NCBI GenBank assembly: GCA_963920665.1
Contig: OY987268.1
Span: 12,216,501 to 12,280,500 of the forward strand
DNA length: 64,000 nt
Direction of reading: 5' to 3'
Source: Straminergon stramineum
Lineage: Eukaryota; Streptophyta; Bryopsida; Hypnales; Calliergonaceae
Shown here: positions 980 to 53,791 of the stretch, piece by piece
Numbering within the stretch: position 1 is the stretch's first letter
How the letters are laid out: each line of letters begins with the position of its first letter
Notes under the pieces: model-generated
Databases searched by the model: none
Seen by the model: only the letters and a program-made list of their open reading frames with translations
Told to the model about the DNA's origin: nothing
Made by a program: the position numbers and the translations under genes

Positions 980-2296
980 CTACGACTCTTTATGGCCCAT
1001 GCTCATAAATCTATTTGTATCAAATTGTTGCTCTTGATGATGACTTTGTAGCTGTGATTGCAATTGCGTAATCTGATGGTTCAATAGCCCATTCTCACGT
1101 TCCAGCTCTGAATGTTTTATCTCCCACTCCATGTTCTCGACTTCCATTCGAGACACTTGAGCCTTCAAGCATTCGATCTGCTTGTGAGCATCAAGCAATT
1201 CGTGTTGAGTCTTCGCGAGCACCGGAAGGAAGCAACCTGGGTCATTGAAATCAATTCTATTGTGTATATTGGGGTCAAGTTGTGAGCTCTGATACTGCAT
1301 GGCCGAATCCATTCCTAAGTTGACAGGCTGTCGAAGTTGTTGAATCGATGAAGTCGCTAACAGTTGGCTCTCTTCAGTCGGCATCTCCAAGGCTAGTCTA
1401 GGTACACTTGGCGGCAGGCTCCTTGAAGCCCTTCGCTTAACAAACTCTGCATAAACCTTCAGGACTTGATCCCCAACTTGTTTCACCTTCTCCTCGTAAG
1501 GCAGGCTAGGGTCCAAGCTCAATGTTGGAATGGAGAAGTACGCATCTTCTCCGAGATCCAATCGCCCCAAACGATGCTTAGACTTATTGCAATAAAAAGC
1601 AGCAATTTGATATGCAATTTCCCCCTCAGCTTTGGTATCGTACGAACCCAGAGAGATCCTCTTAGACTTCCCACCCATGCCTCTCATCACAGGAAACTTA
1701 ATTCGTGGTTCCCACTTGCTGGAACCAGGTCTTTGATACACTGCTCTTCTAGAAATGACTTCTCTAAATTTAATCCAAACGTATGCAGCTTGGAACAGAA
1801 GTATGGAGATGGAGATGTCTCTAAAATCTAAAGAACCGGAGGAGCCTGCTTTAGAACCACCCCTATCAATGTAACCTATGAGATAAAAGTAGACAAAAGA
1901 TAGCAGAACGACTGCTGATACCACAATGGCATCTGCGACTCTTCGTCCACCAATAAGCGGAGGCTGCCTATCCTCACTAAACAAAGTATCCAGAACGGTC
2001 AATCCGACCCCACTGGTGTATCCGAACGCCTGCCATACCGCAATGATTTTTGCGACACCCTGCCGAGCCTTCACCACTGACCTTAGGCAGCGACACGCAG
2101 ACATCACCCTAGCAATGTCGCGGGCATCTTCCAATCGATTAACAATATTATTCAGCACATAATCGGGAATAGTGGGGAGGGATCTTGTCAAGTTCCCTGA
2201 AGCCTTCACATCATCAACCTCTGCGTACGCCTCCTTCAATTCATCACCGACGTCTGTCACCTCCTTCATGGAAACCAGGAATGGGTCCTCCGCCAT
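980..2296 (-). CDS. AP2-like domain protein with F-box-like motif and membrane segments (copy A)
   Basis: Single-exon open frame of 438 aa starting at an ATG in a CAGCCATG context. In order, it shows an acidic helix-like N-terminus (1-35) and an F-box-like stretch at about 40-76 (LPTIPDYVLNNIVNRL, then DARDIA and CRCLRSVV). A hydrophobic, probably membrane-spanning segment follows at 121-143, and a second weaker one at 160-176. An AP2/ERF-like domain at about 183-250 keeps QRPGSSKWEPRIKFP and LGSYDTKAEGEIAYQIAA, matching the beta-strand and amphipathic-helix halves of AP2. A coiled coil runs from about 358 to 425. AP2 domains normally bind DNA; a membrane-anchored or F-box-linked AP2 protein is my inference. 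The canonical YRG is RRA here and the domain is divergent. It is the first of three tandem paralogues (see 5850 and 15456). The F-box call is the least certain part. Confidence 0.72.
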   Translation of the reverse strand: MAEDPFLVSMKEVTDVGDELKEAYAEVDDVKASGNLTRSLPTIPDYVLNNIVNRLEDARDIARVMSACRCLRSVVKARQGVAKIIAVWQAFGYTSGVGLTVLDTLFSEDRQPPLIGGRRVADAIVVSAVVLLSFVYFYLIGYIDRGGSKAGSSGSLDFRDISISILLFQAAYVWIKFREVISRRAVYQRPGSSKWEPRIKFPVMRGMGGKSKRISLGSYDTKAEGEIAYQIAAFYCNKSKHRLGRLDLGEDAYFSIPTLSLDPSLPYEEKVKQVGDQVLKVYAEFVKRRASRSLPPSVPRLALEMPTEESQLLATSSIQQLRQPVNLGMDSAMQYQSSQLDPNIHNRIDFNDPGCFLPVLAKTQHELLDAHKQIECLKAQVSRMEVENMEWEIKHSELERENGLLNHQITQLQSQLQSHHQEQQFDTNRFMSMGHKES

Positions 2297-2480
2297 GGCT
2301 GGAATTGTGAAGAATCCACCTCCTCCGAGAACTCAGCCTTTTCGCAATAAAAGGCAGCAATTTGATGAACGATTTCAGCCTCAGCGGCAATATCCGACAA
2401 ACCCAAAGGGATCCTATAATTCAGACTGGCAACGCGCCTATCGTCGTTCAAACTACCAAGGCTTTCACGCACTCCTCAAA
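2266..2480 (-). pseudogene. Degenerate upstream AP2-domain relic (copy A)
   Basis: Just upstream of copy A, and overlapping its start in another frame, an open frame reads like a decayed AP2 domain: a YRIPLGLSD strand, then AAEAEIVHQIAAFYCEKAEF, which matches the LGSYDTKAEAEVAYQIAAFYCNK half of the real domain. The N-terminal half is badly eroded. The ATG of copy A lies inside this relic, read in a different frame. A parallel relic precedes copy C. This suggests that the ancestor had two AP2 domains, or that an AP2 exon was duplicated, and that the first was lost. Confidence 0.6.
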
Positions 2481-4245: not shown

Positions 4246-4249
4246 TTAA

Positions 4250-4818
4250 CCCCTAAACGCATTGACGTCTATTTTTTGGATGATGAACAATTTGAAACAC
4301 CAGTTTCATCCTCCTAACTACTTGGACGAAAGTTATTTTAATTTGTGAAGATACATTATCAAGTTGTTGTCCTATCTAAGGTTTGGATTTGGTGTTAGTA
4401 GAGTTCATATTTTTCTAAAATTACAAATGTGCAAGTATGTCAAGTGGTCAAACTGCATTGACTTTAGTTCTAAACTGGATTAGCCAAAATGAGGTCATAG
4501 ATAGGAAGAACACAAAAATTTCAAAAAATCAACATGTGAAGAGAACCTCATTTCAAATCCATTCCAAAAAATTTTACTCAAAAAATGATAATATTTTGCT
4601 TGTAACCGAATTTTGAAGGAATTTTGGAATTTCTCTTTCAAAATTTATAAAAAAATATTGGTGATAAAATTGATGAATCTAACCGTACAGATGGAATCTA
4701 AAAATCATAATATACAACTTTCATTTGTATATCAAGTCCAAAACATGCTTCCAAATAGTACTTTATAATGATTTTTCTCAAATTGTCAATTTTGGAGATG
4801 AATCTGGACGTTTAGGGG
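4250..4818. mobile_element. TTAA-inserted element with CCCCTAAACG ends (copy 1)
   Basis: A 569-bp block with inverted ends CCCCTAAACG / CGTTTAGGGG, flanked on both sides by TTAA (4246-4249 and 4819-4822). The paralogous site at about 14121-14140 reads ACACATCTTAATTAGATGAC without the block, so the insertion and the duplicated TTAA are directly visible. No coding capacity is seen. The interior is related to 53232-53787. TTAA target duplication with CCC-type ends is the rule of the piggyBac superfamily; assignment to it is inference. Confidence 0.78.
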
Positions 4819-4822
4819 TTAA

Positions 4823-5849: not shown

Positions 5850-7988
5850 CTAAAACACGATGTCACCTCCTAACGACTCTTCATGCTCCATAGCGAGATA
5901 TCTATCAAGATCAAATTCCTCCTCCGAATGCTGTGACTGCATATTCTCATGGTTCAATAGCTCATTTTCATGTTCCAACTGCAAATTTCTTTGTTCCAAC
6001 TCCGAAATTTTTCTCTCCAGCTCCGAGTAGTTTCTTTCCAGCTCCGAATACTTTACATCCCACCTCATGTTCTCGACTTCTGTTTGGGACTCTTGGGCCT
6101 TCAAACATTCTCGCTGCTTGTAAGCACTAAGCAACTCGTGTTGAGTTTCCGTGTGCAAAAGAAGCAAGGAACTGGGGTTGTTGAAATCGACTCTATTGTG
6201 TGCGTTGGGGCCAAGCTCAAAGCCCAGACACTGCATGGCCGAATCTATCCCTGAGTTGAGAGGTTGTCGAAGTTGCTGAATCGGTGAAGTCGCTAAGAGT
6301 TGACTCTCTCCAATTGGCATCTCCAAGGCTAGTCCAGGTGCACGTGGCGGCAGGTTCCTTGAAGCCTTCTGCTCTTCAAACTGAGCATGAACCTCCAAAA
6401 CTTGATCCCGGACTTGTGTCCGCTTCTCCTCGTAAGACAAGCGGGGGTTCATCCTCAAGGTTGGAATGGGGAAGTAGTCACCCCCTCCAAGATCCAGGTA
6501 ACAAGTGTGCTTCGGCTTCTTGCAATAAAAAGAAGCAATTTGATATGCAATTATCCCCTCAGCTTTCGTATCGTATGAACCCAAAGGAACCCTTTTCGAC
6601 TTAATTTGAGGTTCACCCTTTAAACCCATGCCTTTTGTCACAGGAAACTTAATTCGAGGTTCATACTTGTCGGAACCAGGTCTCTGATACACTGCTCCAT
6701 CAGGAATGTCGTCCGTCAACCTATAAACCGTTCCATTTATCACCTAGTGGGTGATCAAGACAAGTGGATCAAAATCAACGAATTCACACAAAAAAATTCA
6801 TCATCACCAACACAACAATACATATCTATCATCCCAGTGACATCCCAACTCATTTGGAACAAAAAACACTTCTGCCAAATGGAAACAAGTAAATGGATAA
6901 AGTAACTTTACTCACACCTTGCGTAAACCTGACCTCTTTTGAATATGGGAATCTTCAAAACGTGTCCCCAGCAAAACCAATCTACTAATCGCTTCAACAA
7001 TCTCCTCTCGGTAGTTCACTTCTCCCAACTCAAAGTTGTACTTCAAGGCATTGGTGTGGCTTAACAATTGCAAGGCATTGTTCCAATCAGTCAAATCAAT
7101 CCTGCTATCATGTTCCGCCCAAATATGCCACAATGATAACAGATGGTTATCTACATCATGACATTGTGGAAGTGAAATGCCAAGATGAACTTGCATTATT
7201 CTGAAGCTTGGCTTTCTCTTTTGGACATTTGCCATTGCCACCAACTCCAACATGCACCATTTCGAAGTAAAGAATTCCTCCGATAGCACCACCACACCAA
7301 CTTCACATTGGTCAATAGCTTCAAAGATAAGCTTTCGAAAATCCTTTCCAGTGGGCAAGCAATCCGGACGCTTGTCAAAAAAGGGAGAAAGGTCACATCT
7401 CTCCAAGTCCACACACAACTGTTCCACAAACCCTTTTTAGGCACCACTGTGGCTAAAAAGCCTTATGCTTTGGTTGTAACGTGGAATTCCTGTCCACTCC
7501 ATGTAATCAACAACCAATCAATCAATGTTGAAAGAGAAACTAAAAAGTATTTTATAATCGAGGTTGACACTATAATTGCAACAATCACAATATTTGCTAT
7601 TCAAACCAAATGAGCCAAGATGAGCAATGTGCAAGAAATTGCAAATCACAGTTACTACTAACCCATAGCCATTGCAAGCGCTTGTAGACAGGCTAGTGCT
7701 CCCCAGCTCCATGCTTCAAATCGTTCTATGTCTGGAAAACATCGCCAGAACATTACATCTAGTAAGAATCACTCGGGGCAGTCAATCTCCTCCAGGTCTT
7801 CCATAGTACAAACTACCTGGAGAATCATGCACATCCTGAATACCCAATGCTCTCAGGTGACCAATTCTAAGGCGCCAGATGAAAAATTGAAAGAGATTCA
7901 TCAACATCAATTTAAGATTGATCAGCCCCACCACAGCCCCTCTCAACAACGACAACCTGCCTTCAAGATTGACACAAATCTCCTCCAT
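5850..7988 (-). CDS. TIR-AP2-coiled-coil chimera (copy B), three-exon model
   Basis: Inferred exons are 7817-7988, 6918-7432 and 5850-6743 on the minus strand (526 aa). An alternative junction, 6916 to 6720, also keeps the frame (519 aa). Exon 1 starts at the first ATG after an in-frame stop and encodes a partly hydrophobic leader; its donor is CAG|GTAGTT. Exon 2 is TIR-like: LSPFFDKRPDCLPTG, AIDQCEVGVVVLSEEFFTSKWCMLEL and ITxxx-type downstream blocks, with the Glu of SKWCMLEL at the position that is catalytic in NADase TIR domains. Exon 3 gives the AP2-like domain (GAVYQRPGSDKYEPRIKFP, then LGSYDTKAEG) and a long coiled coil, paralogous to copies A and C. The usual TIR N-terminal FLSHRG strand is missing from the model; upstream of 7432 a similar SHSGA string is followed by a stop. 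The gene may be functional with a short TIR, or a recent non-functional fusion. Confidence 0.6.
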
Positions 7989-11793: not shown

Positions 11794-11797
11794 TTAA

Positions 11798-12868
11798 TTC
11801 CTAAAGTACCAAACGGCATTTTTTGGCAACATAGCAATTTTGGTTAGCTCACTACAAACATTATTTTTATTTCTTTTTAGAGAAATTTTCACACAGCATG
11901 TGCCTAAGAAGTAGCTTTAAGGCCCAATAATTTTCATGACTTTTGACTACATGGTTAAAAAGGTATTGTATAGTAAATAATTTTCATTGCTTAATAGGCA
12001 ACTTGGGCAGCTCAAAAAAGTTCTTAAAAAGATCAATTTTTTTTAATAAAAACTTTAAATTGGTTTTCAAGATTTACATATGTATGGGAAACTTTTAATT
12101 ATTCCATTCTTATTAATGAGATGAAAGTTACGAGGGTTTTTAGTTTGTGGAAGGGCTTTTTTAATGGACTAGTGTCCCTTGTGTTGGCTTCACTACAGAA
12201 GCGAGATTTTGGAGGGACAAATTTACAATGGTGAGATTATGATAGATGTGGCGAAATTTCGCCAAAAAAAAAGCCCTAGTTTGTGGGTAAGGATGGATTC
12301 TCTACTTTGAAATAAACTGTGAAGTCCTTTATTTAACTCAATTTTAAATGCTTTTGGAAAAAAATAAAATCAAAGGATGTAGATTGTCTATTAAAATATT
12401 ACAACCATTGGATTTGGCATTTTTCAATTCCATGAAAAAATTCTTAACAATTTAGTATTTTGAATCATTCTCTATTTTTTTCTACTTACTATTTTTTTCC
12501 TATATGTTGTACAATTCCAAATGATCTAAATTTTTTCAAGCATATAGCCAACTTGCCTTGAAGAATGAATCTAAAGAAGCACCACCATTTGGGATATTTT
12601 TTCATACAAATAAGACCTTGTGAAGTGCAACCACTTGATGTTCTGTAGGGTCAAAACAAGGATTTTTGTCAATTCAAACATTAATATCTCGCAATCTTCA
12701 TGGTGAAAATTTCTGAAATTCTATTCACATATTCTCATACCAACATGCTATAAGAACCTATGGTTACATGTGTCCACATTTTATTTAATTTCTAAAATTT
12801 GGTACTTTTACTAGAAATGGCAGTTTTGGAGTGTTTTTGGTGAAAACATAGTCAAAAAACTTTGGGGG
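11798..12868. mobile_element. TTAA-inserted element (copy 2, 1.07 kb)
   Basis: Left flank TTAA (11794-11797) then TTCCTAAAGTACC. The right end is CTTTGGGGG followed by TTAT (12869-12872), a TTAA with one change. The paralogous locus at 20611-20630 reads ACAATGATTAATAAGGATGC without the block. Part of the interior (12480-12680) is similar in inverted orientation to 32400-32600 inside another member. No transposase frame is visible, so this is a non-autonomous or decayed member. Confidence 0.72.
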
Positions 12869-12872
12869 TTAT

Positions 12873-13668: not shown

Positions 13669-15455
13669 CTGCACCCAACAAAAGTGTGCTCAAAATCCTC
13701 ATCGCAAGCTGTTCTTCAAACTAACATGACACACGGAGGCTAAGTTTCCACAAAACATTCTTAAATGGGAAGGAGGGGGCCCTAACTTCTACAGTCTCAC
13801 TAGAACAAGAATTTATTCCTCTTACAGCGAGTTGCCCACAGTACAAGGGCAAGCTTGCATTCAAGATGTTCCACAGTGGAAGGATCCTTTGTTCCTGGAA
13901 AGCAAAGCTTCAAGAATTTTATGCATGGATCGCCTCACTGGTAGACGACTATCAAATCGAACAGCCAGACTGATACCAGTCACCACTTAAGACTTACCCA
14001 TCAGTCGATATCAGCCTGGCAGTCTGGCAATACATGGAAACTTGGCCACATTCATACAAAATGATTATAGAAAGATAGCCGATGATAAATGATTCTTCAG
14101 TTAATGAAATTTCTACTACACATCTTAATTAGATGACGATATGTTTCATGATAAGCATCGATAAGCGACTAAAATTGGCAAATGCAACATCATGTATCAC
14201 TTCATACAAAGAAGTTGTTACTTCCTAATGGACGATAACATTTTGTGAAAGCGGTTTAAAGAACTCACTAATCGGTTCAGGTATTTTTTCATTTTTATCC
14301 CCTTTCCAACCAGAACCAACTTGAAATAGTGCTCCTGGTGGCCGAGACAAAGGCTCCTCGAGCTATGCTGTGCTCCTGAAATAATGGAATCACACAAACA
14401 GACCAATTCATCACACTTTTGGCAAGGCATCATTGATTTCAAAATTTCTCAAGCAACTAAACGCCTCCAAATAAAGTTTTCTTTCCTTCAAATTTGGCTT
14501 AAGTATTTACGATACTGACCGAAGACATAGGGTACTTGGACCTGCTTTGATGGTTTACTTGGCTTCATTTTTTATCAATTTGATAGATCAGTGATCAAAA
14601 GTAAGTTCCTCGATTTCTCATAAACATTGAGTAGCAAAATGCATATCACATACTCTGTTCTTTCACCAAACCCTAGGCAATGGACATACACTCCACCCCC
14701 TCCAATTGCACTGTCTCAGAGAACCAATGGACTTGTACATGCACTACGACATGTGCTTCACAACTTGATATGTTTAATTGTTTAATCAGATTTGAACAGA
14801 AAATGAGTGATTCTCAAGATTTACAACAAACGTGCACTCCAAAGGAACGTGTGATTGCAGTGCGTTACATCCAAAGGAACACTTGCATGTTTCTCTTATA
14901 AGTAGACATCACAAATAACTCCAAACAAACAGTTGCATGTTCCTCTTGCATGTTTCTCTTGCATGTTTCTCTTATAAGTAGACATCACAAATAACTCCAA
15001 ATCAACACTTGCATGTTTCAATTTGCAATGGTGAAAATCATGAAAATACTATACTCTTTGCATTGGGACCATTTTCAAAGCAAATGGATAAGTACAATTT
15101 CTTAGATCTCAAACCAAGTGAAATTGACAAACTTTGCTCAAAGCTAGGAAATGAAGTATAATTAGCAATTTTACTCTTCACTTAGGGTACTTACATGCCT
15201 TCAGAGACCTCTCAAAAATCCAATATTTACATTTTTCAGTGAAAAATAAAAGTTTTCAATAGTTAACCTTCAAAACTGCCTATAATTTTTTCTTAAACGG
15301 TCAGAAGAATTTAACTGCCTATACCAAAACGAGCAACCATATATGGTCGGTTGGGCATACAAGGGTTAAAAACTAACTGTAAAGCAACATGGCGCAAAAT
15401 GAAACTACCAACTGTTATGAAAACCATCTACAAAACACCACACCTTGCCACCCTG
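13669..15455. repeat. Spacer plus 3'-flank block of AP2 unit C
   Basis: Positions 13669-14130 match 21412-21846. Positions 14130-14860 match the 3'-flank blocks of the other units, including an intact empty site for the TTAA element at about 14121-14140. Positions 14870-15020 hold a local tandem duplication built on CTTGCATGTTTCTCTTATAAG and AAATAACTCCAAA. Positions 15020-15370 are unit-specific AT-rich sequence. No gene seen. Confidence 0.6.
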
Positions 15456-16679
15456 TCACGTGGCCAACAACTCTTCATGCTCCATGCTGAGAAATAAATC
15501 AAAATCAAAATCCGGCTCATAATGTAGGGGTTGTAGCTGTGACTGCATAATCTGTTCGTTCGATAGCCCTTTCTCACGTTCCAGCTCCACATTTCTTTGT
15601 TTCAGCTCGTTGATCTCGACTTCCATTCGAGACAATTGGGCCTTCAAACATTCGTTCTGCCTTTTCTCCTCAAGCAACTCGTGTTGAGTCTTTGCAAGCA
15701 CTAGAAGTACGGAACCTGGGTTGCTGAAATCGTCTCCATTGTGCATGTCGGGGGGAAGCTGGGATCCCTGACCTTGCATGGCCGAATCCATCCCTGAGTT
15801 GAGAGGTCGTCGAAGTTCCTGAATCGGTGAAGTCGCTAAGAGTTGGCTCTCTCCAACTGGCATCTCCAAAGCGAGTCCAGGTGCATGTGGCAGCAAGTTC
15901 CTTCCAACCTTCTGCTCTTCAAACATTGCATAAACCTTCAAAACTTGATCCCTGACTTGTTTCACCTTCTCCTCGTAAGGTAGGTTGGGGTCCATGCTCA
16001 GGGTTGGAATGGGGAAGGAGGCACCTCCTCCGAGATCCAGTCGACCCAAACAATATTCAGGCTTGTTGCAGTAAAAAGCAGCAATTCGATATGCAACTTC
16101 GGCCTCAGCAGAAGTATCGTACGAACCAAGAGGAACCCTTTTCGACTCGACCCCCACGGCTTTCATCTTAGGAAACTTGATTCGAGGTTCGAACTTGTTG
16201 GAATCACGTCTGTGATACACTGCTCCTCTAGGAATGACGTCTCTGAATTTAATCCAAACATATGCTGCTTGGAACAAAACTAGAGAGATGTAGATGTCTC
16301 TAAATTCTAAAGAACCGGATGGGCCTGCTTTAGAACCACCCTGATCAAAGTAACATTCGAGATGACAGTCGACACTAGATAGCGTAATAACTGTTACTAT
16401 TATTAAAATGCGATCACTTTCTTCCAAGATAGACCCAGGGAAGAAAATCTCAATCACTATGCTGAACCACTTGCCAAGATACATGAAGGGGACGAAAATC
16501 TCCAAGAAAGAGGCCAGCGGCCTTCCAGATACTCCGAAAGAGACATCATCCTGCATATCTCCAAGTGAGCATAACTTCTTTAAAGCCTTCAGCTTTTCAA
16601 TCTCTGCGCGCACCGCCTTCAATTCATCACCGATTTCTGTCACCTCCTCCATGTCATGTAGCAATGGGTACTTAGTCAT
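15456..16679 (-). CDS. AP2-like domain protein with membrane segments (copy C)
   Basis: Single-exon frame of 407 aa. The ATG lies in CAGCCATG, the same context as copy A. It has a charged helical N-terminus (8-36) and hydrophobic segments at about 56-80 and 90-104, with a third at 127-144. The AP2-like domain at about 150-218 has RGAVYHRRDSNKFEPRIKFP, then LGSYDTSAEAEVAYRIAA; RGA is closer to canonical YRG than in copy A. A coiled coil occupies about 328-390. It lacks the F-box-like stretch of copy A, although the sequences on either side correspond. It is probably a membrane-associated AP2-family protein; function unknown. The closest relatives in this window are copies A and B. Confidence 0.72.
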   Translation of the reverse strand: MTKYPLLHDMEEVTEIGDELKAVRAEIEKLKALKKLCSLGDMQDDVSFGVSGRPLASFLEIFVPFMYLGKWFSIVIEIFFPGSILEESDRILIIVTVITLSSVDCHLECYFDQGGSKAGPSGSLEFRDIYISLVLFQAAYVWIKFRDVIPRGAVYHRRDSNKFEPRIKFPKMKAVGVESKRVPLGSYDTSAEAEVAYRIAAFYCNKPEYCLGRLDLGGGASFPIPTLSMDPNLPYEEKVKQVRDQVLKVYAMFEEQKVGRNLLPHAPGLALEMPVGESQLLATSPIQELRRPLNSGMDSAMQGQGSQLPPDMHNGDDFSNPGSVLLVLAKTQHELLEEKRQNECLKAQLSRMEVEINELKQRNVELEREKGLSNEQIMQSQLQPLHYEPDFDFDLFLSMEHEELLAT

Positions 16680-16830
16680 GGCTGGAGTTGTGAATAATCA
16701 AACTCTTCCACGAACTCAGCCTTTACGCAACAAAAGGCAGCAATTCGATGGAAGATTTCTGCCTTAGCGGCGACGGACTACGAGCCCAAAGAGGTCCGGC
16801 CAACGCCCCTATTGTCGAGAGAGCTTCAGT
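16660..16830 (-). pseudogene. Degenerate upstream AP2-domain relic (copy C)
   Basis: Reading into copy C, one frame gives TSLGS, a stop (TAG), then SVAAKAEIFHRIAAFCC and VKAEFVEEF, ending in a stop at the TGA of CCATGA. This matches the second half of the AP2 domain and corresponds to the relic ahead of copy A. The stop and the missing first half mark it as dead. The ATG of copy C lies within its last codons, in another frame. Confidence 0.6.
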
Positions 16831-20436: not shown

Positions 20437-22173
20437 AATATTATTGTTGGTTACACTATCCCCTTAGGACACCACCAAGCCCCCTATTTCAAAAAATGGA
20501 TAGGCCAAGGGATTACAAAAATAGTAAAATAAAAATCCAATGACATGGCAAGGATTCAACTAGATTAGATACAACTATATCTACAAGTGTATAGACTTAT
20601 AGATATGTATACAATGATTAATAAGGATGCGGATTATTTCAAATTTTTTGTTAGCAATCTGAATTAATATTGGTAGTGGTATTTCCATTCCTAAATTTGA
20701 AAAAGTAATATTAAAAATGGACTAGAGTGGCACGCTTCAATTTTAATAACTAAGACTTTTGACATGCTGAGTGACTATCCACTATCCACCTATCACACAA
20801 TACTTCAAACATCGTAAATATATTTCTTCACACAACATCAATCTCATTAAAGTGGTGATGTTCCATTACTTTGGCGCAGTTCAGGCCGCACTTTGTGAAA
20901 CCAAATCTCTACCTGCAGAATTGGTACCCTACGACTAAACTGAACCAAACTTCATAAGCTCAACAGCAAGCACTAAGGGAGAGAAAGTCAAAATACAATT
21001 AAGTAAACCAGGGTCGATGCATAAACACAAACGCTGCTTACATTCCACCTTTTATTTTCGCTTGGTGAAGTCACCTTGAAACAAACAGTTTACGAAGTCT
21101 GCTCCATCCAGAAATTACTCACAAACCAATTAAGGGATTCTCATTGTAAACCTTCAAATTTCATACTGAATCGTATCAACTTGTATAATCCTGCTAACAT
21201 GCTACACATCAGTTTCCACACACCTATACAGTACAAAACTAGAGGAAGCATTCTCTCAATGCAACACTCTATATGCAAATGTTGATCTTTCCATAGCTTC
21301 CCAGGGCATCCACCAGAGTCTGTAGGCTCAGAATCAGTCACTTCTTGGCTTCCTTTCCTCATTTTTCCTGAGATTTAGCAACTGTTCTGTTCGTCTCCGG
21401 TTGCTCCTCGCCTGCACCCAACAAAAGTGTGGTCAAAATCCTCATCACAAGCTGTTCTTCAAATTAACGTGACACACGGAGACTAAGTTTCTAAAAAACA
21501 TTCTTAAATGGGAAGGAGGGGGTCCTTCTACAGTATCACTGGAACAAGAATTTATTCCTCTTACAGTGAGTTGCCCACAGTACAAGGGCAAGCTTGCATT
21601 CAAGATGTTCCACAGTGAAAGGATCCTTTGTTCCTGGAAAGCAAAGATCCCCAGCCTTAAAGTTCAAGAATTTTATGCATGGATCGCCTCACTGCTAGAC
21701 GACTATCAATCCAACAGCCAGACTGATACCAGTCCCCACTTGCCCATCAGTCGATATCAGCCTGGCAGGCTGGCAGTGCATGGAAACTTGGCCACATTCA
21801 TGTAAAATGTTTATACGTAGATAACTGTTGATAAATGATTCTTCAGTTATTGAAATTTCTACTACATATCTTGATTAGATGACGATAGGTTTCATGATAA
21901 GCATCGATAAGCGACTAAAATCGGCACATGCAACATCATGTATCACTTCATACACAGAAGTTATTACTTCCAAATGGACGGTAACATTTTGTGAAAGCGA
22001 TTTAAAGAACTCACTGATCAGGTCGGGTATTTTTTCATTCCTATCCCCTTTCGAACCAGAACCAACTTGAAATAGTGCTCCTGGTGGCCGAGACAGAGGC
22101 TCCTCTACGCTGTGCTCCTGATATAATGGAATCACACAAAGAAACCAATTAATCGCAATTTTGGCCGGAAATT
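20437..22173. repeat. Distal spacer plus truncated AP2 3'-flank (unit D)
   Basis: Paralogous to 11600-14420. It includes the empty site of the 1.07-kb TTAA element (20618-20621) and a second copy of the conserved exon-like segment (21334-21411). From about 21846 it matches the AP2 3'-flank block, but similarity stops near 22173, so the fourth AP2 gene itself is missing. The + frame at 21566-21805 is only partly kept in the other unit. Confidence 0.6.
21334..21411 (-). other. Conserved terminal-exon-like segment (unit D copy)
   Basis: Second copy of the 13591-13668 segment: TGCAG acceptor, 25 codons with RSNRRRTEQLLNLRKNEERK, then TGA. Differences from the first copy are few (GTG to GCG at the first codon and silent changes). 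Unknown product. Confidence 0.35.
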
Positions 22174-24395: not shown

Positions 24396-24399
24396 TTAA

Positions 24400-24982
24400 T
24401 CCCTCAAGGACCAAGTGTCCTTTCAACGTAGGCAAGAAATCTCGGGTAGGCTCCTACAAAGTCATTTCCAATCGGATGTTCATGAAATTTGGACATAATA
24501 TGTACCTATGTATACCCTTCCTGAAAATCTAATTTTTTTTCCGATCAGGTGATTAGATCAAAAGTTATGCTACCCTGAACTTTGTGGGCAGCTCGGGTAG
24601 TCTTAGGTAGCATGTGCAAAACTCTTCCTATGATTTTGAAATTTGGTGGGTGGGTAGCTTATGTGATCCAAGATGCAAATGTCAAAAAAAATAACTCTAT
24701 TTAGTGTAAGAATCTCATTCTAAAAGGAGTTAAAGTTTGCAGGCCATGTTGGATAAGGTAGGGAAAAAAAACTTTTTCACCTGACTTCAAATGTTATAAT
24801 CTTTCAATTTGTGCAGTCAAAGTTTCTAAAAAGTTTTTCCATGTGTTCCCAAACAAGTCTAGTTCAAATTTGTACGGTTGAATTTTGAAAAAGCAACTTT
24901 TTTTTTCATTTTTTTCTTGCCGCCCTAAAAAGTGGCAGTTTTTGACAATTTCTACCCCAAATGTGCCTTGGTCCTTTAGGGG
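24400..24982. mobile_element. TTAA-inserted element (copy 3)
   Basis: 583 bp flanked by intact TTAA on both sides (24396-24399, 24983-24986). Ends are TCCCTCAAGGACCAAG and, from the right, CCCCTAAAGGACCAAG. Non-coding interior. Same end family as 4250, 11798, 32193 and 53232. Confidence 0.68.
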
Positions 24983-24986
24983 TTAA

Positions 24987-25914: not shown

Positions 25915-27927
25915 TGTGTTAGAAATATTTGAGATCACAAGGTTTGTAAGTACCAAATTTCAACTATCCCTTGAATGGACTCTTGGTCCTTGAGGGGTTA
26001 TAAATACTTGCTTTCAAATGCCATTGCATTTATAATGCATCATCATCCAAAAATCCCATATTTTTTTTAAAACGATGAAATTGCTTGATTTGAGATAAAT
26101 ATATTTAAATGTATATACATTTATGTAAATAAATGATGTTTCATTTATAATCTACTAAATTATAGATGTAAGCTTCATCATTCCAAAATAGATTTCAAGT
26201 TATTCTACTTTGAAATTTGAAATTAAAAAACATATTTTCATGGAATGAATCATAAAAACTAAAAGTCTTTGAGGTTGTAATTAGGAAGTACAATTTTATT
26301 CTATAAAATTAAAGAATTCTTGAATTTTTTCCATGTGATCCTAGAAAGAATTTCATATTTTCATTGTAGAATATTCTTAACTTTGCATTTATAGAAAAAA
26401 AAAGCCAATTTATCTTTTGATTTGATTTTTTAAATGCGTGAATTTGATTTCAAAATTTGTTATCCTATTTCCATATTTTTCCTTTTTTATGAGGATGGTT
26501 TTCAGTGGTATATTATAATTTTGTCTTTTAGCTTGCTTCTAATAGGTTCTATTTCAATTGTACAAAGTCCAAACTTTGTATTTTCTTTACTTTCTCTATA
26601 TCTGATTTTTAATGAGCTTTCAATGATAGTAATCTCAAGTACAGATTCTCCACCAATAAAAAGACTAATATAGTAATTGAATAATTTTTTGTGTTGAACT
26701 AGTGATGCTCTCAATATCATCAATGGAATACACTGCATGGAGCAAAAGTAATATATCTCTAGTGCAAGCCACAAAAATGAACAAAGTTGGGCTCTAAAGT
26801 AACTACACCCAATTCCAAACCCTCTTGAATGTCAACTCCTACTTTTGAAGGGAAACTAAACAACTAGAAAGTATCCAAAATGATGAGCATTAGAAGGATA
26901 AGTGTAAGGTGGAGTTAGAGGCCATTTTAGGTAATGAATGGCTTTATTCATAATACTTATAAGAGGTGATTTTTTATATATTTTCTTTTGTTTTAACTAA
27001 TATCAAAAGGATTTTGGCATCACCTAGATTACACTTACAACCTCCTACACCTTGCATCTTTGAAAATTTGCTACTAATTCATAGTGATTCCAAAATTTAT
27101 ACAACCACTTATATTATGATTCAATTAAAAGTATCTACTTGCAAATTTTGATTGTCAATTATTATTGCATATCCATTTGTCTACAAAGCTTATTCAAATG
27201 AAGTTAGGTGCAATTACCTTAATGTATAAGTGGAATAGGGTTGGTTGTTGACCTACTCAATACAAAAATCTACACATGACAATTTTGGATTATTTATTGT
27301 GCACTCTACATTGAGCAAGAAACCTTTGTCTTACAACATGACAAGGGCATCTAAGGGCCCTTTTATACTGTGCCCCAAGTCCTACTAAGTTTTCAAATTT
27401 TGTTTGGTGGAGAGTTGAAAAATGGGACTTGGGGCTTCACATTACAATCCAAGTCCCACATCACTCTAAACCCCTATATGGGAATACCTTTTGGGATTTT
27501 TGGCACCAAGAAATTGGGACTTGGAGGACAAATTGGGTCTAGACAAAATGAAAATCCAATTTTGCCAACAAGTCCCAACAATTTTTTTGACTAAAATATT
27601 GAAGACCAAGAAGGATGTAGGCCATCAAGTAGACATGATTGTTTTGTCTATTGAATACAAGAGCCATCCAAAATCCAAAATCTTGAGCATGTGTATGTTT
27701 TTTCTTCTGTTGTTGTTGCAACATTCAATTATTTGGCTAATTTTTTTTGTTTGGTTTCAGTTGTGGTTTGTCCCTTCTATTTGTAGAGTACAGAAGGATT
27801 TTTACGAAACCCTTATAGTTGTAACCAAATGGATTATTCAATTGGAAAGTAGAATTTGGGGTGTCTAATTTATACAATGTGTTTCATTCCTTTACTCTTG
27901 AAAGTTATACCTCAAAAGAACAAGATT
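25915..27927. other. AT-rich intergenic sequence
   Basis: No supported gene. A 79-codon hydrophobic + frame at 26434-26673 resembles a membrane protein in composition only. Around 27365-27545 the words GGGACTTGG and its variants recur, suggesting an old degenerate repeat. A TTGGTCCTTGAGGGGTTATA string at about 25983 resembles one end of the TTAA family without an obvious partner. Confidence 0.4.
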
Positions 27928-28149
27928 GACTACAAGAGAAAGGGGTGTTTTAAGTGAGTTTTTAAGTATAGTCCTAGACAAAAGATTATAAGTAATGACC
28001 TATAAGGAGATTTTTAGTATAAATTTACTAGAAATACATGTGTTTCTAGTAAAATTTTACTGAAAATCTCTTTACAGGTCATTACTTATAATCTTATGTC
28101 TAGGACTATACTTAAAAACTCACTTAAAACACCCCTTTCTCTTGTAGTG
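27928..28149. mobile_element. CACTA-like hairpin MITE
   Basis: 222 bp forming a nearly perfect hairpin. The right end read inwards is CACTACAAGAGAAAGGGGTG; the left end is GACTACAAGAGAAAGGGGTG, so only the first base differs. Each arm is about 100 nt. CACTACAAGA is the terminal signature of CACTA/En-Spm elements. The expected 3-bp duplication is not preserved (ATT versus CAT). It directly abuts the end of the Harbinger-like transposase relic. Confidence 0.75.
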
Positions 28150-29564: not shown

Positions 29565-30231
29565 ATGTGTCCTCTACGTGTGATTGTGTTGTTTCTCTCT
29601 GCTATGCTGGCGGGCTACTTTGCGATAAAGTCATTGGGGAAGCAGGGCGAGAATAGTGTTTTAGACGTAAGTGAAGAGGTGCCGGAGAAGGCCATTGAGC
29701 AGACGAGCTTCGTCACTAAGGTACGCGCATTAGGGTTTTGAGTGTCGAGGAGTCACTGGGTTGGGAATTTTCCTGGAATTGTCATGTTTTTGGATGAGAC
29801 CTTCGTGTCTGCGATCTCTTGAGCTTATTCCTTGGAGGACTAAGAAGTCCAATTTGGACTTCATGTTTTTCTTTAACTAGTTTTGAGAGTGTCATATGAA
29901 CATTTTTGTGTTCAATTTTACTTATTTTCTCACCAACGCATGCAATGTTCTTCACTGATTCTAGTGATATGAAATCTAATTTCATATGAATTATATTTTT
30001 CACAAATATGATCTAATAAACTGGTCATTCTAATTCCTTCAATTCTTGGTTCTTTCGGGGTTAAGCTACGACTCTGTCTATTGCTCGCTCTCATGTATTT
30101 GTGCTATAATTCTGCAGGTCTCCACAGCAGCGTCCTCCTTCTTCTGGGTGACGATCGAAATGCTCAGCGGTCGTTACCTATACCACAATCTCAAGGGGCA
30201 AGCAAAAGTCGCGACAGTGGCAGATGGATAA
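29565..30231 (+). CDS. Small conserved single-span membrane protein, two exons
   Basis: Exons 29565-29720 and 30118-30231 (89 aa). The donor is CTAAG|GTACGC and the acceptor TTCTGCAG|GTC, both phase 0. The protein begins MCPLRVIVLFLSAMLAGYFA, a signal-anchor type membrane span, followed by an acidic linker and a C-terminal SFFWVTIEMLSGRYLYHNL motif. From memory, small plant proteins with an MCPLR start, one span and an FW...SGRYLW ending form a conserved family often labelled methyltransferase-related; that label is not evidence of enzymatic activity, and no methyltransferase motif is visible. The gene looks intact. Sequence up to about 30480 is likely 3' UTR. Confidence 0.72.
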
Positions 30232-32188: not shown

Positions 32189-32192
32189 TTAA

Positions 32193-33119
32193 CCCCTAAA
32201 GTTCCTTGACTATGTTATCACAAAAAACATCAAAAAACTGCCATTTTTAATACAAGTACCAAATTTTTGAAAAATATCATTTTTAGACACATGTAACCAT
32301 AGGATCTTAGAGTACACTAGATTAAAAAGATGTGGAAAAAATTTCAGAAATTTCCACCCTATAGATTGCAAGATATTAGCATTTGAAGTGACAAAAATCC
32401 TTTTGGGGGCCTGTGAAAAAACGGGCAGCTGCACTTCACAAGTTTACATTTGTATGAAAAAATGTCCAAAATGGTGGTGCTTCTTAAGATTCATTCTTCA
32501 ATGCAAGTTGTCTACATGCTTGGAAATTTTCAGATCATTTGGAATTGTGCAATATATAGGAAAAAAATAGTATGTAGAAAGATGTAGAAAATGATTCAAA
32601 ATACTAAATTGTTAAAAATTTATTAATGGAATTGAGAAATCCAAATCCCAATGATTGTAATGTTGTAATAAACAATCTACATCTATTTTTTTTTTTTTTT
32701 TCAAAAAATATTGAAAATTGACTTGAATAAAGGACTTCAAAGTTTATTTTAGAGTAGAGAATCCATACTTGCCTGCAAACTAAAACATCTCATAACTTTT
32801 GACTCATTGATCAAAATGGAATGATTCAAAGCTTTCTATGTATATATAAATCTAGAAAATCAATTTCAAATTTCAAATTTTGAAAAAAAATGATTTTTTC
32901 AGATTTGCCCAGACTGCCCAAGTTAAGAAACAAACTACGTATTAGGCCATAACTTTTGACTCATATTTCCAAATGCCTTGAAATTTAGTGCACATGCAAT
33001 GCCTCGTCCACACCTTCTATTAAAGTTTGGGCCAGAAACATGGAAATCTCAACATAAAAATATTGAAACCTGCCCCAAAAAATTATGTTGCCAAAAAACA
33101 CACCTTAGTCCTTTAGGGG
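32193..33119. mobile_element. TTAA-inserted element (copy 4, 0.93 kb)
   Basis: Flanked by TTAA (32189-32192) and TTGA (33120-33123, one change). Ends are CCCCTAAAGTTCCTTGAC and, from the right, CCCCTAAAGGACTAAGG. Internal similarity, inverted, to 12480-12680 of the 1.07-kb member. Non-coding. Confidence 0.65.
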
Positions 33120-33123
33120 TTGA

Positions 33124-36100
33124 ATCACATTGCCATTTGAATAAATGCCAATGAATTCTTTAAATGTATCTTCAACAATCACTTTGTTCATGACAAACAA
33201 TATGGATAATCAACTTCAATTATTCAACTTCTAATGCGACATTAACTCCTAAAGGTTGTGGAATTTCTTGAAATTTTGTGATTTTCAAATATTCATTATA
33301 AAGTAGCTCTTAATGGATAAATTCAATAACAAACTTTGAGCAAGCTTTATATATTAATAACCATATATTACATCTAAATAGTTAAATATGTCCAAATTAT
33401 CATCAATAATTTTATATGATACAAATAAAATAAAAATAAGGAATATTTCAAATTTTTACTAAAGAAAAAGTTTTCATATTTTTCTTAAAGTCTTTTTGTA
33501 GAAAGCTTCAAACTTCAAATTCTAACTATGATAAATTTTTCAATATAATTTTCATTTAAAAAATTAAAAACTTTCCTAATAATACTTTTAATGCAAGAAA
33601 GCCAAAGAATATTTTTAATTAAAAAATTTATAGAATATTTAAACAAATCAGTTTTTAAAATTTATATAGTGAATATGTTGGATAATTAACATATTCTTTG
33701 TAAAGAGATTGAATTGGTGAAGTATCCACTCCAAGTGAATGAAATCATTTTTTTCATCCATCAGCCCCTTTCACCCCTAAAATTCCATTGTCATGTGGAG
33801 GTACATAATGGTTTTTGGGTACGTTCATATAGTTTCAAATATTTGTTGTAATTTTTAAAACTTTTGAAGATAGGAAAACTCATCAGCTTTCCAAGAATAT
33901 AATTTTTATTTCAATTGGTGTTTTAGAGCAAAAGCTATGCCACTTGAAGCTCCAAAAGAAGTTCAACAAACAATACAAAAAAATCACAGAATGTCAAAAT
34001 AAAATTTTCAAAATTTTGTTTTTCACAAAAAGTCTTTTATCGAAAGGGAAAGATTCAATTCATTTTATTTGGATTAGTGATGAAAAAGTTATGGAAAATC
34101 TTATTTGAGGGGCAATCTAAGCATCTTCTTGAAAAAATAACTTTTGTTGAATTCATTTTTTAACACAATTTTTACATTTGTTTCAGAAAAATATTCTACA
34201 AGGTTTAGTTAGTTTGCTAGAACAATCTCAAGTTGGGATTGGTGATTTTCAATTCAATCCATCTTAAGACCTATTAAAGATTTATTTTTTCCTTCAATCT
34301 TGTACCTACTTCTACTTAACAATTTCTTTAAAGAATAAAAATCAAGAGTGTATTTTTTGAATTTTTTTTCCTAGACTTTCAACTGAATTCTTAAGAAAAA
34401 ATATTGTAAATGTATAGAGCAAAAACATTAAGCTAAAAAGATTCAAACCCTTAAAAATCTAGTCAAGCAAGGTACAAAAAAATCAGACATATAAACTTCA
34501 AATACAAATATCTTGCAATCCACGTAGTCTAAGAGATTTAAATGTCTTCTACACATTCCTATTCTAGTCTAGTACAAGATCCTAGAGGTAGATATGCAAA
34601 AAAAAGTTCAAAACTTTAATGCACTTTGCAATAGAAATGATGGTTTTGGGTAGTTTTGATGAAGAAATGCCTTGGGAGTTGAGGAGTTGAGGACATTTCA
34701 ATCTAATTACAGGTGTCAAGATTTTAGGTAATTGTGTTTAGTTGTGACTTGTTTCTAAAACCAACCCTCAAAAATATTGTTTAAAATTCACAACAAACTC
34801 TATTCATTAAAAATTAGATTGATTTCAGATATATCTATTTTTAATACTTAAAAATTCATAGTTCCTTCTTATGAAGTCCAAAAATTACACTTTAGAGTAT
34901 CAAGAATCCCCTTTTGACCACCAATAAGATCCAACCAAAATTTTATAGTTTAATAATACTAACCATGGTCAAACCATTATTCAAAAAAATCTAGGTGTTG
35001 TTAACTTGAAATAGTTATTATGCATTAAGTATGAGGTTGCTTGTGGAAGTGTCATTGACTAAAGTGATAAAGCTTGATGCACATTTCTATCGGAGTGAGA
35101 TATTCTCAACTAAGAGCATCTTCATTGTGGACATGCCAAACTTTGAAAGACCCCTTCAAATCCAATGTTCCAAATGCCATACTTGCAAGCACAAATATCT
35201 CTTCCCAACTCATCCAAGCATCAAAGTTCTTTTTCTTTAATTATCATCTTGGCCAAATCAAACAAGAGATAACTTGCATCAACAAGTGCAAAGACAAATT
35301 AGACAATTTTAGAACCTCATCCCCTATAGCCCTATAGTAATAGGGATCTTGTTGCCCATGTGCTTTTTTTTTTTTTTTATAGAAAAAGTGTGTCTAATTT
35401 GGATGTTGGGGTAGGAGATAAACTATTGAATTGCCCACCTAATTTGCACGTCATGAGCCTTCTAATCTTCCATTGATCACTTGGTGTTGGAGATTTGAAG
35501 AGTGATGGTCGAGATGCTCTAAATGAGATGTGCTTTGGAAGTTAGATTGCTCTAGAATGATGTTAGAAGCTATATCTAATATAAATTAAAAGTAGAAAAT
35601 GAAAAGTGAAATCTAAGAATAAAAATGAGGTTTTTTTACTAGTTTTAAAGTCTTGGAAATAAAGATCATACTTTGCTAATAGAATATATAGTCACTTCTT
35701 TTATAAGTTTGAGCTTAGAGATTAGAAGGATTTGTTATTAGACGTGTGGTGGTTGAGCTCATTACTTCTACTCTTCTTGTATAAGCCTTATTGATTATCA
35801 ATTGATTAATACAACTGAACTTCTCTGCATTCTAAACATTACCATAATCAACTAGGTTGATTGTTCCCTATAGTACATAGAAATGAACTTTATTTCCTTC
35901 AATGATTAAAAGATCAACATATAGATTTGTAGGATTAGAAAAAATGGATTTTATACATTCAAAAAAAATGAAACTAAGTTGCAAGGAGAATAGGAATCTA
36001 CACCCTACTATAACTTCTAGTGATTTGATACATGTTAGATCAACAAAATTAATTAATTTATAAACCTTAATGACTCCCCAAAGACACCTCTACTTAATGA

Positions 36101-36735: not shown

Positions 36736-39700
36736 AGTGTGGCGTGGATCTTGTTGCTTGTTCAAGGTTTATGTAGCCAAGGCATGCAAAATTAACTAGT
36801 GAACATATCGAGCTACAACTCCATTGCCTAAATGCCCAGTGCTTGGCATGACTTAATATGCACTATTAGTAGAAGTGAGACCACTAGGATGAAACACTTC
36901 AAAAAATTCCCAAAGTCACTCTTATACAAAAATTTGTTCAAAACCAAGTTTGAAGGGTATGGCTTGTTGTTTATTGGTTAAGTCAAGTTCATATCAAGAG
37001 TATTCAAAAGTGCCAACTTCACTAAAGAATAAGTTGCTTACATGGCATCCAAATTTCAGAATCCTTTCCCATTTGAATCTTTTTGTCACAATGAATAAAC
37101 TTATTTTACTCCTAAGAATTCCGTTATCTATGTTATGAATGATGAACAAAAGAGTGCTTCATGCCAGATGTTCCATCCAAATAACTTCTCATTTATCCAA
37201 AGCATTTTTTGAATCTTGAAATGATGATCTTTCTTTAAGACCAATTCAATGAAATTAAAAGAAACAACATGTTCTTTAATACAAGCCATACAAGCACAAA
37301 TGTACAAAAATCCAAAAGGGATTCAAGCATTAAATTTTTGAGGAAAAGGTGTATTAATGTGCTAGCATTTGTATCAATGTCATGATGTTGGGTGTTTATG
37401 AAGCTAAAGTTAGACATCTATCTATTTTCTTGTTTGTTTTAACTAGGTGGAGGTTGCTATTGCTTGTTTTGTAAATTCGATTTCAATTGGGGTTTATATT
37501 ATTAGCTTTGTAACCTTCAACAATACTTTTGTTGATACTTATTGACTGAGGTTTGGTTTCCATAGACTCCTTACAATTTTTTTTAATCTTATTGCATCAA
37601 GTCTTAGCACTAATGTGTGCTTTTGAAGTTTGACAGTTTGTTTTGCACAAGGAGGTCTTGAGAGCATTGGACTTGTACTCAATAGGAGTTGAAGATCTAT
37701 TGAAAAACAATAGTTATTTCTTCTAGCTATATGGATTTGTAAAGCAAGTGTTGTTTGGAGATTTATTTTGTGGAACTTCCACAATTGTTTTGGCTTTGCA
37801 TAGAATATACTTCTAATTACAAGAATTGTATCACTTTCAATAAACATTTGTTACAAATAGACATCATGTGCTTTTGGGGATAGACAAAAAATTTCACAAT
37901 GCTATATAAATTTCAAACCCCTTATTTGCAAATTATCTATAGTTGAAGAGTACAAAGAATTTTTACCTCAAAAGCTAACTATTCTAATTCAAAACACCTT
38001 CCCTTCAAAATTTGCTTTAGAAAATACATCATTCAGTTTTACAAAAAATTCCACTCAATTAGAGCTATCATAAATCAAAATCTAAAGGAAAAAAAATTCT
38101 TGTGAAAATCATGATAATCAATTCGTAATCTAAAAATAAATATTTGATTCTAGGTTTCAAATCTCTTTGATAAATATTGAATAGTGCAATGGTAGGATCC
38201 ATCTATATGGATGTAATCTATAGATCATAGATTCTAGCTTTTTATTTGACAAACATTTGAAAATTCTTCTTCTACATTGCAATTTGTAACACCATCTTAC
38301 AATATTGGAAATTTCAGCTAAGTTAACTCTCTAATCTTTAAGGGGTCAAGAACTCCAATACGTATTTATTATCTACTACAAGTATTCAATGGCTAGAAAG
38401 ACTTATTTTTTTAACTACTAAAGGACCAAAGTATCCATTCATTGGACACTTTAGAACTTGGATAGTCATACAAAGTCAATTTTTAAATAATGGTTGTTTT
38501 CAAAATTTTGACACAAAATGGGAAAATTCACCCTCTTCATGGAAATTGAAAAAAAAAAATTGATCAGCTTTATAGATAAAAAATTATGTTGCCCCAATTG
38601 GGTAGTTTTGGCAATTTTGGCATCTTTGCTAAATTCTTCATCTACTTTTGAAACTTGGCATGTATACACCTAACATCATGACATAGTATGTAATTGTAAA
38701 AAGAAACTACTTTTAATACAAAAATCTCATTCCAAGAGGAGTCAAACTCTACTTACCCTACTTGACAAATTTGAAAAACAAACCATTTCTTCTAACTTCA
38801 AACTCAATTATCTTGAAATTGGTAATCTCAATTTCAGTTTTAGAATTTTTTTTTCTCACATATTCCAAATGCCTATTTCTAAACTTTCATTGTTTAGATT
38901 TTAAATATAAAATATCCTCAATGCATGACAAATCATAAAAAAATTACTAGTCACATGTTGCCAATTCACTTAGCTTCTTTGCATTGCAAGGTGATTTAGA
39001 GTCGGTTAGACCTCTTGAGGTGTCTTCTCACTTGACATTATCAGTCTTGTCAGTCAACCTAAGAGTTAGCAAAAATATATTTTGTTTTTACACCATTGTT
39101 GTTTACTAATGTAAGTGTTAAATCTGCATTTTGTAGTTGATGTAGTAGAAGATCATAACAAGTTTTTTGTTAGTTATTTCAAAACCTCATGAAGAATTAA
39201 AGAAAATTTTGGAAAATGTTATATAGCAATCAATCTTCTGAGCATGTAGATTTAAAGGAGATAGAGTTGATATTATGAGAAATGAGAACAATTACATAAC
39301 ACCCCCAAAAGGATGCCCAATCATTCAAGTGTCATATGTACTCGATCACCTCCGTATTCTAGTTTAGGTTAAGCATATTGGCAATACACTAGTCATTTTT
39401 TGATGATTTTAAAATATTGTGTAGAAACTTATCATATAATTTGTGGAAAAACAATAATAAAAATTCAAGATTCTTGTTGGAAGTGTATATCATGAGCCCA
39501 ACTTGCTTACCAAACCTAAACCATAGTAGTAGGATGGTTTTATAAAATTTGGTGAGATTTATCAAATGCTTAGTGCAAAGAGCCCTTTATTTGCTTCTAA
39601 AGTTTGCAAGAGTGTGCCTAACAAGATTTAGAACTCAATGGTGGAGAGATGGACATTCATCAAGAGCAAAAATAATACTCCATGAGGGCTCTAAGTCTTC

Positions 39701-52630: not shown

Positions 52631-53198
52631 CTCCCTCCGTCCCAAAATGATCTTCCTGTTGGACAAAGTATTTCTAATTAAGGCAAAAAATAATATTTTT
52701 TCAAAATTGTTTCGCATGGCAAGTAGGGTTTGGTACACTCCTAGTGTCTTAGAAATTTTGAGTTTCGGAACCCTTGTCAAAGTGTAGTTTTGTAGTTTTG
52801 AAAAGTGGAATTTTTGGGGCATTTTTAAGGAGCACCACTGGGCACATAATTGTAGAGTGTGAGGTCATTGTTTCGTAGGCACTTAGTGTAAGCCTAAGCC
52901 CGTGTGTGGACCTCTGTATCATCTCCCAAAGCTTCATCTCCTTCAATCAAGAAACACTCGAAGAGATGCAAAAAATAAGGACGAAGAGTGTTGATTGACA
53001 TCTTTAGTCATTTAATTTGTATTTTGATTGATGATTGTATAGATGGAAGGGAAACTATTGCTTGGAGTTGTTTTGTTAGTCCCAAGTAACAATCAAAAGT
53101 TGAAGTTGACCAATTTTCAAGTCATAAAGTGCAATAGGAAGATCATTTTGGGACAAAAACTTAAGGCCAACAAGAAGATCATTTTGGGACAGAGGGAT
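52631..53198. mobile_element. Tc1/mariner-type element with CTCCCTCCGTCCCA ends
   Basis: Left end CTCCCTCCGTCCCAAAATGA after TA (52629-52630). The right end read inwards is ATCCCTCTGTCCCAAAATGA. CTCCCTCCGTCCCA is the classical plant mariner/Stowaway end. The right terminus is partly duplicated just inside (53130-53160). 568 bp, no transposase frame visible. Confidence 0.75.
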
Positions 53199-53231
53199 TT
53201 ATAGTATTCCAAAGAAAAAGATGCTTATTAA

Positions 53232-53787
53232 CCCCAAAGTACTTTGATGTCCATTTTTGGACAATAAATAGATTGAAACTCAAGTTTCATCCTCACTACT
53301 TGGAAGAAAGTTATTCTAATTTGAGGAGATACTTTATCAAGTTATTGTCTAATCTAATGGTTGGATTTGGTGTTACTAGAGAACATATTTTTCTAAAATT
53401 ACCAATGTGCAAGGATGTCAAGTGGTTGACCAAGCCAAAATTGCATTGACTCTAGTTCAAAACGGGATTTGCCAAAATGAGGTCATAGATTTTAGGAACA
53501 CAAAAATTTCAAAAAAACACCATGTCAAGATAACTTCATTTCATATCCACTCAAAAAAATTTACTCAAAAAATGATAATATTTTGCTTATAATCAAAATT
53601 TGAAGGAATTTTGAAATTTGGGTTTCAAAATTTATTAAAAAAATATTGGTGATAGCATTGGTGAATCTAAAATTCATAGTCTACAACTTTTATTTGTATA
53701 TCATTTCCAAAATATTCCTCCAAATAGCACTTTATAATGTTTTTTCTCAAATTGTCAATTCTAGACATGAAATTGGATGTTTAGGAG
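53232..53787. mobile_element. TTAA-inserted element (copy 5)
   Basis: 556 bp flanked by TTAA (53228-53231, 53788-53791). It is closely related along its length to 4250-4818 (for example AGTTTCATCCTC, TTTGGATTTGGTGTTA-type, ATATTTTTCTAAAATTAC, TGTCAAGTGGT). Ends are eroded (CCCCAAAGTA; CTCCTAAACATC from the right). Non-coding. Confidence 0.68.
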
Positions 53788-53791
53788 TTAA

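Follow-up and report, generated by a model that had tools for sequence, protein, structure and literature searches.

We found that the 569-bp insertion at positions 4250-4818 of the window (the whole stretch of 64,000 nucleotides of Straminergon stramineum DNA that was analysed) is very probably a non-autonomous piggyBac-type MITE, presumably moved by the DDE_Tnp_1_7 transposase of coding relatives in the same genome. Three lines of evidence, taken together, argue for this assignment of the element, here called E1: a duplication of the target TTAA, the presence of coding elements that carry the Pfam domain PF13843 (DDE_Tnp_1_7) and have similar termini, and the retention of the aspartates in these coding relatives. 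Under the proposed mechanism, a transposase encoded by the coding relatives would recognise the CCCCTAAACG ends of E1, cut the element out, and join it into a TTAA, or rarely a CTAG, which would give rise to the 4-bp duplication. We infer that one of the transposases found here moves E1, and any statement on which lineage does so, and how recently, would be of the same kind.

Including both target copies, E1 occupies positions 4246-4822 and reads TTAA-CCCCTAAACG...CGTTTAGGGG-TTAA, an assignment based on its ends, on the comparison of paralogues, and on at least 43 rows of a genome scan (strands are given here and below only where one is assigned). The left and right target-site duplications lie at 4246-4249 and 4819-4822, and the terminal inverted repeats at 4250-4259 (plus strand) and 4809-4818 (minus strand); these repeats are perfect over 10 bp, and arms of 14 bases are 100% complementary. 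The flanks of E1 are colinear with two paralogous units of the window, unit C (14051-14124, continuing at 14129) and unit D (21834-21870, continuing at 21875), with exactly 4 bases between the flanks in each unit. These joint bases are TTAA in unit C (14125-14128) and TTGA, which is different by one base, in unit D (21871-21874). A third paralogous copy, at the start of the window, is likewise without an insertion at this site, but has a small local deletion there. The comparison shows a clean insertion of E1, which turned a single TTAA into two. The preliminary description had placed 569 bp with inverted ends between two TTAA copies, which is confirmed, and had reported an uninterrupted site in units C and D, which holds for both units as far as the missing insertion is concerned, with the amendment that the TTAA of C is replaced by TTGA in D.

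The genome scan with E1 covered the 326 Mb assembly (59 contigs), in which 11 large contigs of 17 to 47 Mb account for 324.9 of 326.0 Mb; 40 of 4082 first-look candidates were scored. Forty of the 43 rows, E1 itself (L001) among them, were read with their flanks, the other three being a complete row with a lower score and two partial rows; it should be noted that these 40 copies are the best matches and not a random sample. They sit on 10 of the 11 large contigs and correspond to 39 independent insertions, given that L003 and L008 have common flanks and represent a single insertion that was duplicated along with its surroundings. The distance of the copies to their consensus has a median of 2.9% (0.029) and ranges from 1.6 to 4.6%, and the longest stop-free stretch of the consensus is 65 codons. 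When the copies were anchored on the consensus ends, TTAA was present on both sides in 37 of 40 (31 of 40 before shifted ends were re-anchored). The exceptions are one left end with ATAA, one with TTTA, and the copy L021, which has CTAG on both sides; beyond the flanking tetramer, there is no strong base conservation among the 40 copies.

By itself, TTAA reads alike for a duplication of TA, of TTA or TAA, and of TTAA. The copy L021, CTAG-CCCC...GGGG-CTAG, separates these cases, because CTAG stands directly beside CCCC and GGGG on both sides; this single copy shows a true 4-bp duplication and not one of TA next to ACCCC ends. A PIF/Harbinger (Tourist-like) origin with three duplicated bases, an outcome that the preliminary description had singled out as fatal to its reading, could draw on both TTA and TAA being contained in TTAA and on MITEs of this type being common in plants. 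A 3-bp duplication, however, leaves the fourth base free, whereas that base is conserved here, with TTAA on both sides in the 37 copies, and in the CTAG copy the complete tetramer is duplicated; we consider this origin vanishingly unlikely. The TTAA-only sites would fit equally well a MITE of the Tc1/mariner or pogo type that duplicates TA, has ACCCC ends, and prefers T-TA-A, and a pogo-like coding relic at 47348-49573 of the window offers a possible source. The arrangement predicted by that combination is CTAA-CCCC...GGGG-TTAG, which is contradicted by L021, and this alternative is very improbable. The relic was rejected as the source of E1 because its superfamily, according to excerpts of PMC7386202, duplicates TA, TAA or TAAA; moreover, the end-like matches found between 45.3 and 53.2 kb (45393, 45452 and 51595) are weak (9.2-9.9 bits), none of them is at a TTAA, and none is oriented so as to bracket the relic. 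The reading of E1 as a TTAA-duplicating, piggyBac-type element is supported by the sequences that were read, 40 copies of E1 and the transposase loci, the 4-bp duplication being nearly always TTAA (37 of 40 copies, one CTAG/CTAG copy, and two empty sites).

Some copies of E1 have neighbours of a similar kind. In L009, L019, L020 and L023, another C-rich end lies directly across the common TTAA (4 of 80 sides), an excess that is weak when set beside the 14 of 738 TTAAs in the window that are followed by YCCY. Among the 43 rows, three pairs are at most 80 bases apart (near C3:14798846, C4:20225848 and C4:21407570).

The preliminary description had also listed ends of the same family at 11798, 24400, 32193 and 53232, and all four proved to be real, belonging to the elements E3, E5, E4 and E2, respectively. 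E2 (53228-53791) is a relative of E1, 81% identical to it, with TTAA on both sides. E3 (11794-12872; 1079 bp) represents a second family and is flanked by TTAA and, at the right target copy, by TTAT; E4 (32189-33123, minus strand; TTAA/TTGA) belongs to the same family, with 81.5% identity to E3 across 596 aligned bases in the opposite orientation. Comparison of E3 and E4 with E1 gave no match. The joined flanks of E3 match positions 20441-20800, where a single TTAA (20618-20621) is present and there are zero extra bases at the joint. Accordingly, E3, which is unrelated to E1, supplies another empty site that is independent of the first and has a single TTAA. E5 (24396-24986) is of a third family and has TTAA on both sides and the ends TCCCTCAAGGACCAAG and CCCCTAAAGGACCAAG. 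There are two further probable elements: Y (33770-34690), a weak relative of E4 with flanking tetramers TTCA and TTGA, both of which deviate from TTAA, and Z (38411-39000), a relative of E5 (67% over 140 bases) with an end coordinate guessed from the length of E5. E5 and the probable elements Y and Z start additional families or belong to them. Two unpaired ends on the minus strand complete the set: one of the same type at 25971-26001 (TTAT on the plus strand), which may instead be the outermost right terminus of a longer element that begins at 24396, and TTAACCCCGAAA at 30053-30064. By coordinates, E1 to E5 and Y add up to 4.7 kb, or 7.3% of the window.

The abundance of such ends was compared to that in shuffled sequence. 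The pattern TTAACCCCTAAA, at no more than 2 mismatches, occurs 22 times in the window, whereas 9.1 occurrences are expected, and this number was not attained in any of 100 shuffles. A weight matrix built without the TTAA positions, and trained on ten of the ends it recovers, gave 13 matches of at least 14 bits in the window, with TTAA at 9 and a one-base variant at 4; 9 of these 13 are training ends. At the matches of this strength outside the training set (25997, 30060, 34686 and 38415), TTAA was found at two and a one-base variant at two. Among the matches of 8-14 bits, TTAA is present only at 33246 and at 53232, the latter being the left end of E2.

The search for a DDE_Tnp_1_7 transposase with matching ends, one of the checks suggested at the outset, was successful. 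Using the PF13843 profile (473 first-look candidates, 116 scored), we detected at least 118 matching stretches at at least 116 loci in the genome, with a best E of 7.8e-79, as compared to zero matches in 14 control genomes. Each of the 11 large contigs has such loci, which is evidence against contamination. Of the small contigs, C59 (115,000 bp) contains plastid genes and C58 (104,602 bp) mitochondrial ones (rps7, ndhB, rpoB, atpB, rps4, psaA and nad5 were identified by eye). The best match of the plastid atpB piece is chloroplast ATP synthase beta (6fkf), and that of the plastid psaA piece is PDB 8htu, from the moss Physcomitrium patens; mosses typically have a mitochondrial genome of about 105 kb. 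These features point to a land plant, probably a moss, as the host. Comparison of E1 to a plasmid collection and of the end pattern to viral contigs produced no match. For 20 loci that were fetched, the domain is free of stops in five (L043, L045, L046, L056 and L057). The L057 protein matches piggyBat (PDB 9c0f) with an E of 2.9e-33 and the piggyBac of T. ni (6x67) with an E of 1.7e-26; in the DE, MDN and GVDxxDQ motifs, it retains the aspartates that align, which we take to be catalytic, and its C-terminus is cysteine-rich. In a motif scan, all three motifs with their aspartates were found in 6 of the 20 loci (L042, L043, L045, L046, L052 and L057), although the domain of two of them, L042 and L052, contains stops. 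In L056, the second D is replaced by N, and in the other 13 loci at least one motif is unmatched, partly as a result of stops and partly of the narrow patterns that were used. In a tree of the domain pieces, the 20 loci fall into several lineages and are interleaved with proteins from public contigs. Among the 57 relatives of L057, the two that are named come from insects (26-30% identity).

Five coding copies could be bounded at both ends; they lie between TTAAs and are 5.1-6.6 kb long. With upstream sequence added, four of them measure 5125, 5124, 6413 and 6557 bp, both TTAAs included. The first two have CTCAACGCCC at their ends, one end of the second being off by one base, and the 6413 and 6557 bp elements have lineage-specific bases that are common to both ends (CTAAGCGCCCC; CTGAGCGCCC). 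The fifth, of 5344 bp, lies on the contig of the window, at a distance of about 0.95 Mb from it, and has the ends TTAATCCCTAAAGGACCCT and TTAACCCCTAAAGGACCCT; a stop interrupts its transposase frame. An E4-like MITE lies 0.2 kb outside this fifth element. More broadly, of the first 20 transposase loci, 7 have TTAACCCC ends, and when one mismatch to TTAACCCCT was tolerated, such an end was seen in 8 of 20 additional 3' windows, the rest being out of reach or without such ends.

Compared to the best MITE end, the ten termini of the coding elements agree at 9-12 of the 12 bases after TTAA, a likeness that is partly built in, given that these termini were sought with patterns of TTAA followed by pyrimidines or C. 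As a control, we used 23 12-mers beside internal TTAAs of the coding elements, which reach at most 8 of 12, and 8 only once. The lineage-specific bases common to both ends of one coding element are not built in and provide independent support. The fifth element matches one end each of E4 and E5 at 12 of 12 bases, and the E1 end has a maximum of 10 of 12 bases in common with several coding elements. When the MITEs were compared to the coding elements by BLAST, no common interior was seen, E1 giving its termini and chance-level matches only. Among the bounded elements, a direct coding parent of E1 was not found, and none has E1 ends beyond about 10 bases.

The restriction of the likeness to the termini is what would be expected if E1 belonged to another superfamily, such as Sola3, presumably also a TTAA superfamily, with CCCCT ends that arose by convergence with piggyBacs; the transposase search, which covered PF13843, is compatible with such a source as well. 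Conversely, E1 agrees with coding termini at 10 of 12 bases at best, E4 and E5 each have one end that matches in full (12 of 12), and the genome contains over a hundred piggyBac-domain loci, all of which makes this convergence very improbable. Kolobok, the other large superfamily that duplicates TTAA, merits consideration because of that common duplication (PMC9587614, PMC6004289) and of its record in chlorophytes and rhodophytes, as given in a section of PMC9587614. The Kolobok termini described there, 5'-RR...YY-3' (AG ends in PMC6004289), are absent from E1, which has 5'-CC...GG-3', and the coding elements with similar ends carry PF13843, so that a Kolobok-type MITE is highly unlikely. A transposase of another superfamily with the same ends, the second result that would have overturned the initial reading, did not emerge among the coding elements found with such ends, which carry PF13843, and the piggyBac-type assignment of E1 stands.

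The consensus of E1 ends in CCCCTAAACG at both sides, with CCC as the first three bases, as do most animal piggyBacs in the survey of PMC10813416. The stricter rule CC[C/T]T, given for piggyBac termini in parts of PMC2872659 and PMC10175614, does not apply, since the E1 ends are CCCCT, with C as the fourth base. We do not treat this mismatch as defining, because published piggyBacs also depart from the rule (CACTA, CCCAT), and rare targets other than TTAA are on record as well (PMC10813416, PMC10140906).

Compared to the piggyBac superfamily as represented by 6x67 and 9c0f, the moss elements have in common PF13843, the aspartates, the cysteine-rich C-terminus, the TTAA duplication and the C-rich termini. 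They differ in the land-plant host, in CCCCT instead of CC[C/T]T, in conserved segments upstream of the transposase domain that are without a Pfam match, and in the length of the coding elements (5.1-6.6 kb, as compared to 2.47 kb for the T. ni element according to PMC10140906). Plant MITEs of the Stowaway (TA) and Tourist (TWA) types are short, numerous and non-coding, and have inverted ends. E1 is like them in form, but differs in the duplication and in the source of its transposase. A closer parallel in the sections of PMC2872659 on coral CMITEs comprises short, non-coding elements with a TTAA duplication and C-rich ends as in coding piggyBacs, empty-site evidence, and some copies that adjoin each other; the CMITEs are about 100 bp long, whereas the MITEs found here measure several hundred bp to 1.1 kb and reside in a plant. 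The Kolobok and T2 MITEs share the TTAA duplication, and Kolobok has purine termini and another transposase (PMC9587614, PMC6004289).

The upstream segments were observed in the five coding elements L041, L047, L050, L057 (with upstream stretches added) and L085. The first segment is present in five of five elements from four lineages and is 28-42% identical between lineages; the second is present in four of five, from three lineages (27-50%), and was not found in the fifth element. The four open frames that hold these segments gave no Pfam match better than an E of 0.11. In P0098, a public relative, a stretch similar by eye to the second segment lies in one open frame with the transposase; relatives of this type suggest that the segments are probably N-terminal modules of the transposase protein, perhaps on separate exons in the elements analysed here.

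The suggestion in the preliminary description that piggyBac is rare or unreported in land plants could not be upheld as to the second part. Plants are named in passing among the piggyBac hosts, or the superfamily is listed for plants, in portions of PMC10813416, PMC10140906 and the review PMC10794571, and the repeat table of Ceratopteris in PMC6890710 contains a small PiggyBac class (1230 entries, 0.00%). Among the open-licence papers listed, judged by titles and the beginnings of abstracts, we found no paper devoted to endogenous piggyBacs or TTAA MITEs in a moss or another land plant, which is a weak indication.

What is new here is the occurrence of piggyBac-type MITEs together with their coding relatives in a land plant. 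The piggyBac group is known mostly from animals, and plant MITEs are usually filed as Stowaway, Tourist, hAT or Mutator types. The present case is a plant genome with numerous TTAA MITEs and more than 100 piggyBac-domain loci, a few of which are stop-free through the catalytic domain. We lean, by a little, toward a broader interpretation, namely, that a lineage of land plants, probably mosses, has undergone a large and old piggyBac radiation, with a transposase that has extra conserved N-terminal modules and with some copies intact, which feeds several TTAA MITE families and makes up a noticeable part of the genome. If this is true, piggyBac would be a resident superfamily of plants, and not an animal superfamily with stray plant reports. 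The occurrence of the MITEs and the piggyBac-domain loci in one plant genome provides plant biology with an endogenous counterpart to a tool so far taken from insects and with a natural system for TTAA targeting and excision in plants, and adds a new branch to the evolution of the piggyBac superfamily. These results also suggest that repeat libraries of bryophytes may contain TTAA elements that go unclassified.

Several other features of the window were observed. The pogo-like transposase relic (47348-49573, minus strand) matches HTH_psq and HTH_Tnp_Tc5 without reaching the curated cut-off and has relatives with DDE_1; the best of the named ones comes from Cryptomeria japonica (44%), and a search of the relic against PDB gave no match. 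The Cryptomeria relative had raised the possibility of a conifer host, against which genome size, contig number and organelles argue. Land-plant pogo is reported from eudicots only in the excerpts of PMC7386202. Directly to the left of E2, there is a MITE (52632-53197) with the ends TCCCTCCGTCCCAAAATGATCTTCCT and arms that are 94% complementary, which we take to be Stowaway-like. A near-perfect palindrome of 220 bp (27929-28148) consists of two 110-base arms, 94% complementary, without a spacer. A tandemly repeated gene is found at 983-2332 (minus strand), with further frames related to it at 5853-6743 and 15459-16697. The protein of its first copy, 450 aa long, has a weak F-box-like match, and only two relatives at E<0.001 were detected for it among 8000 scored candidates. 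The window also contains a TIR domain that is closest to plant resistance proteins.
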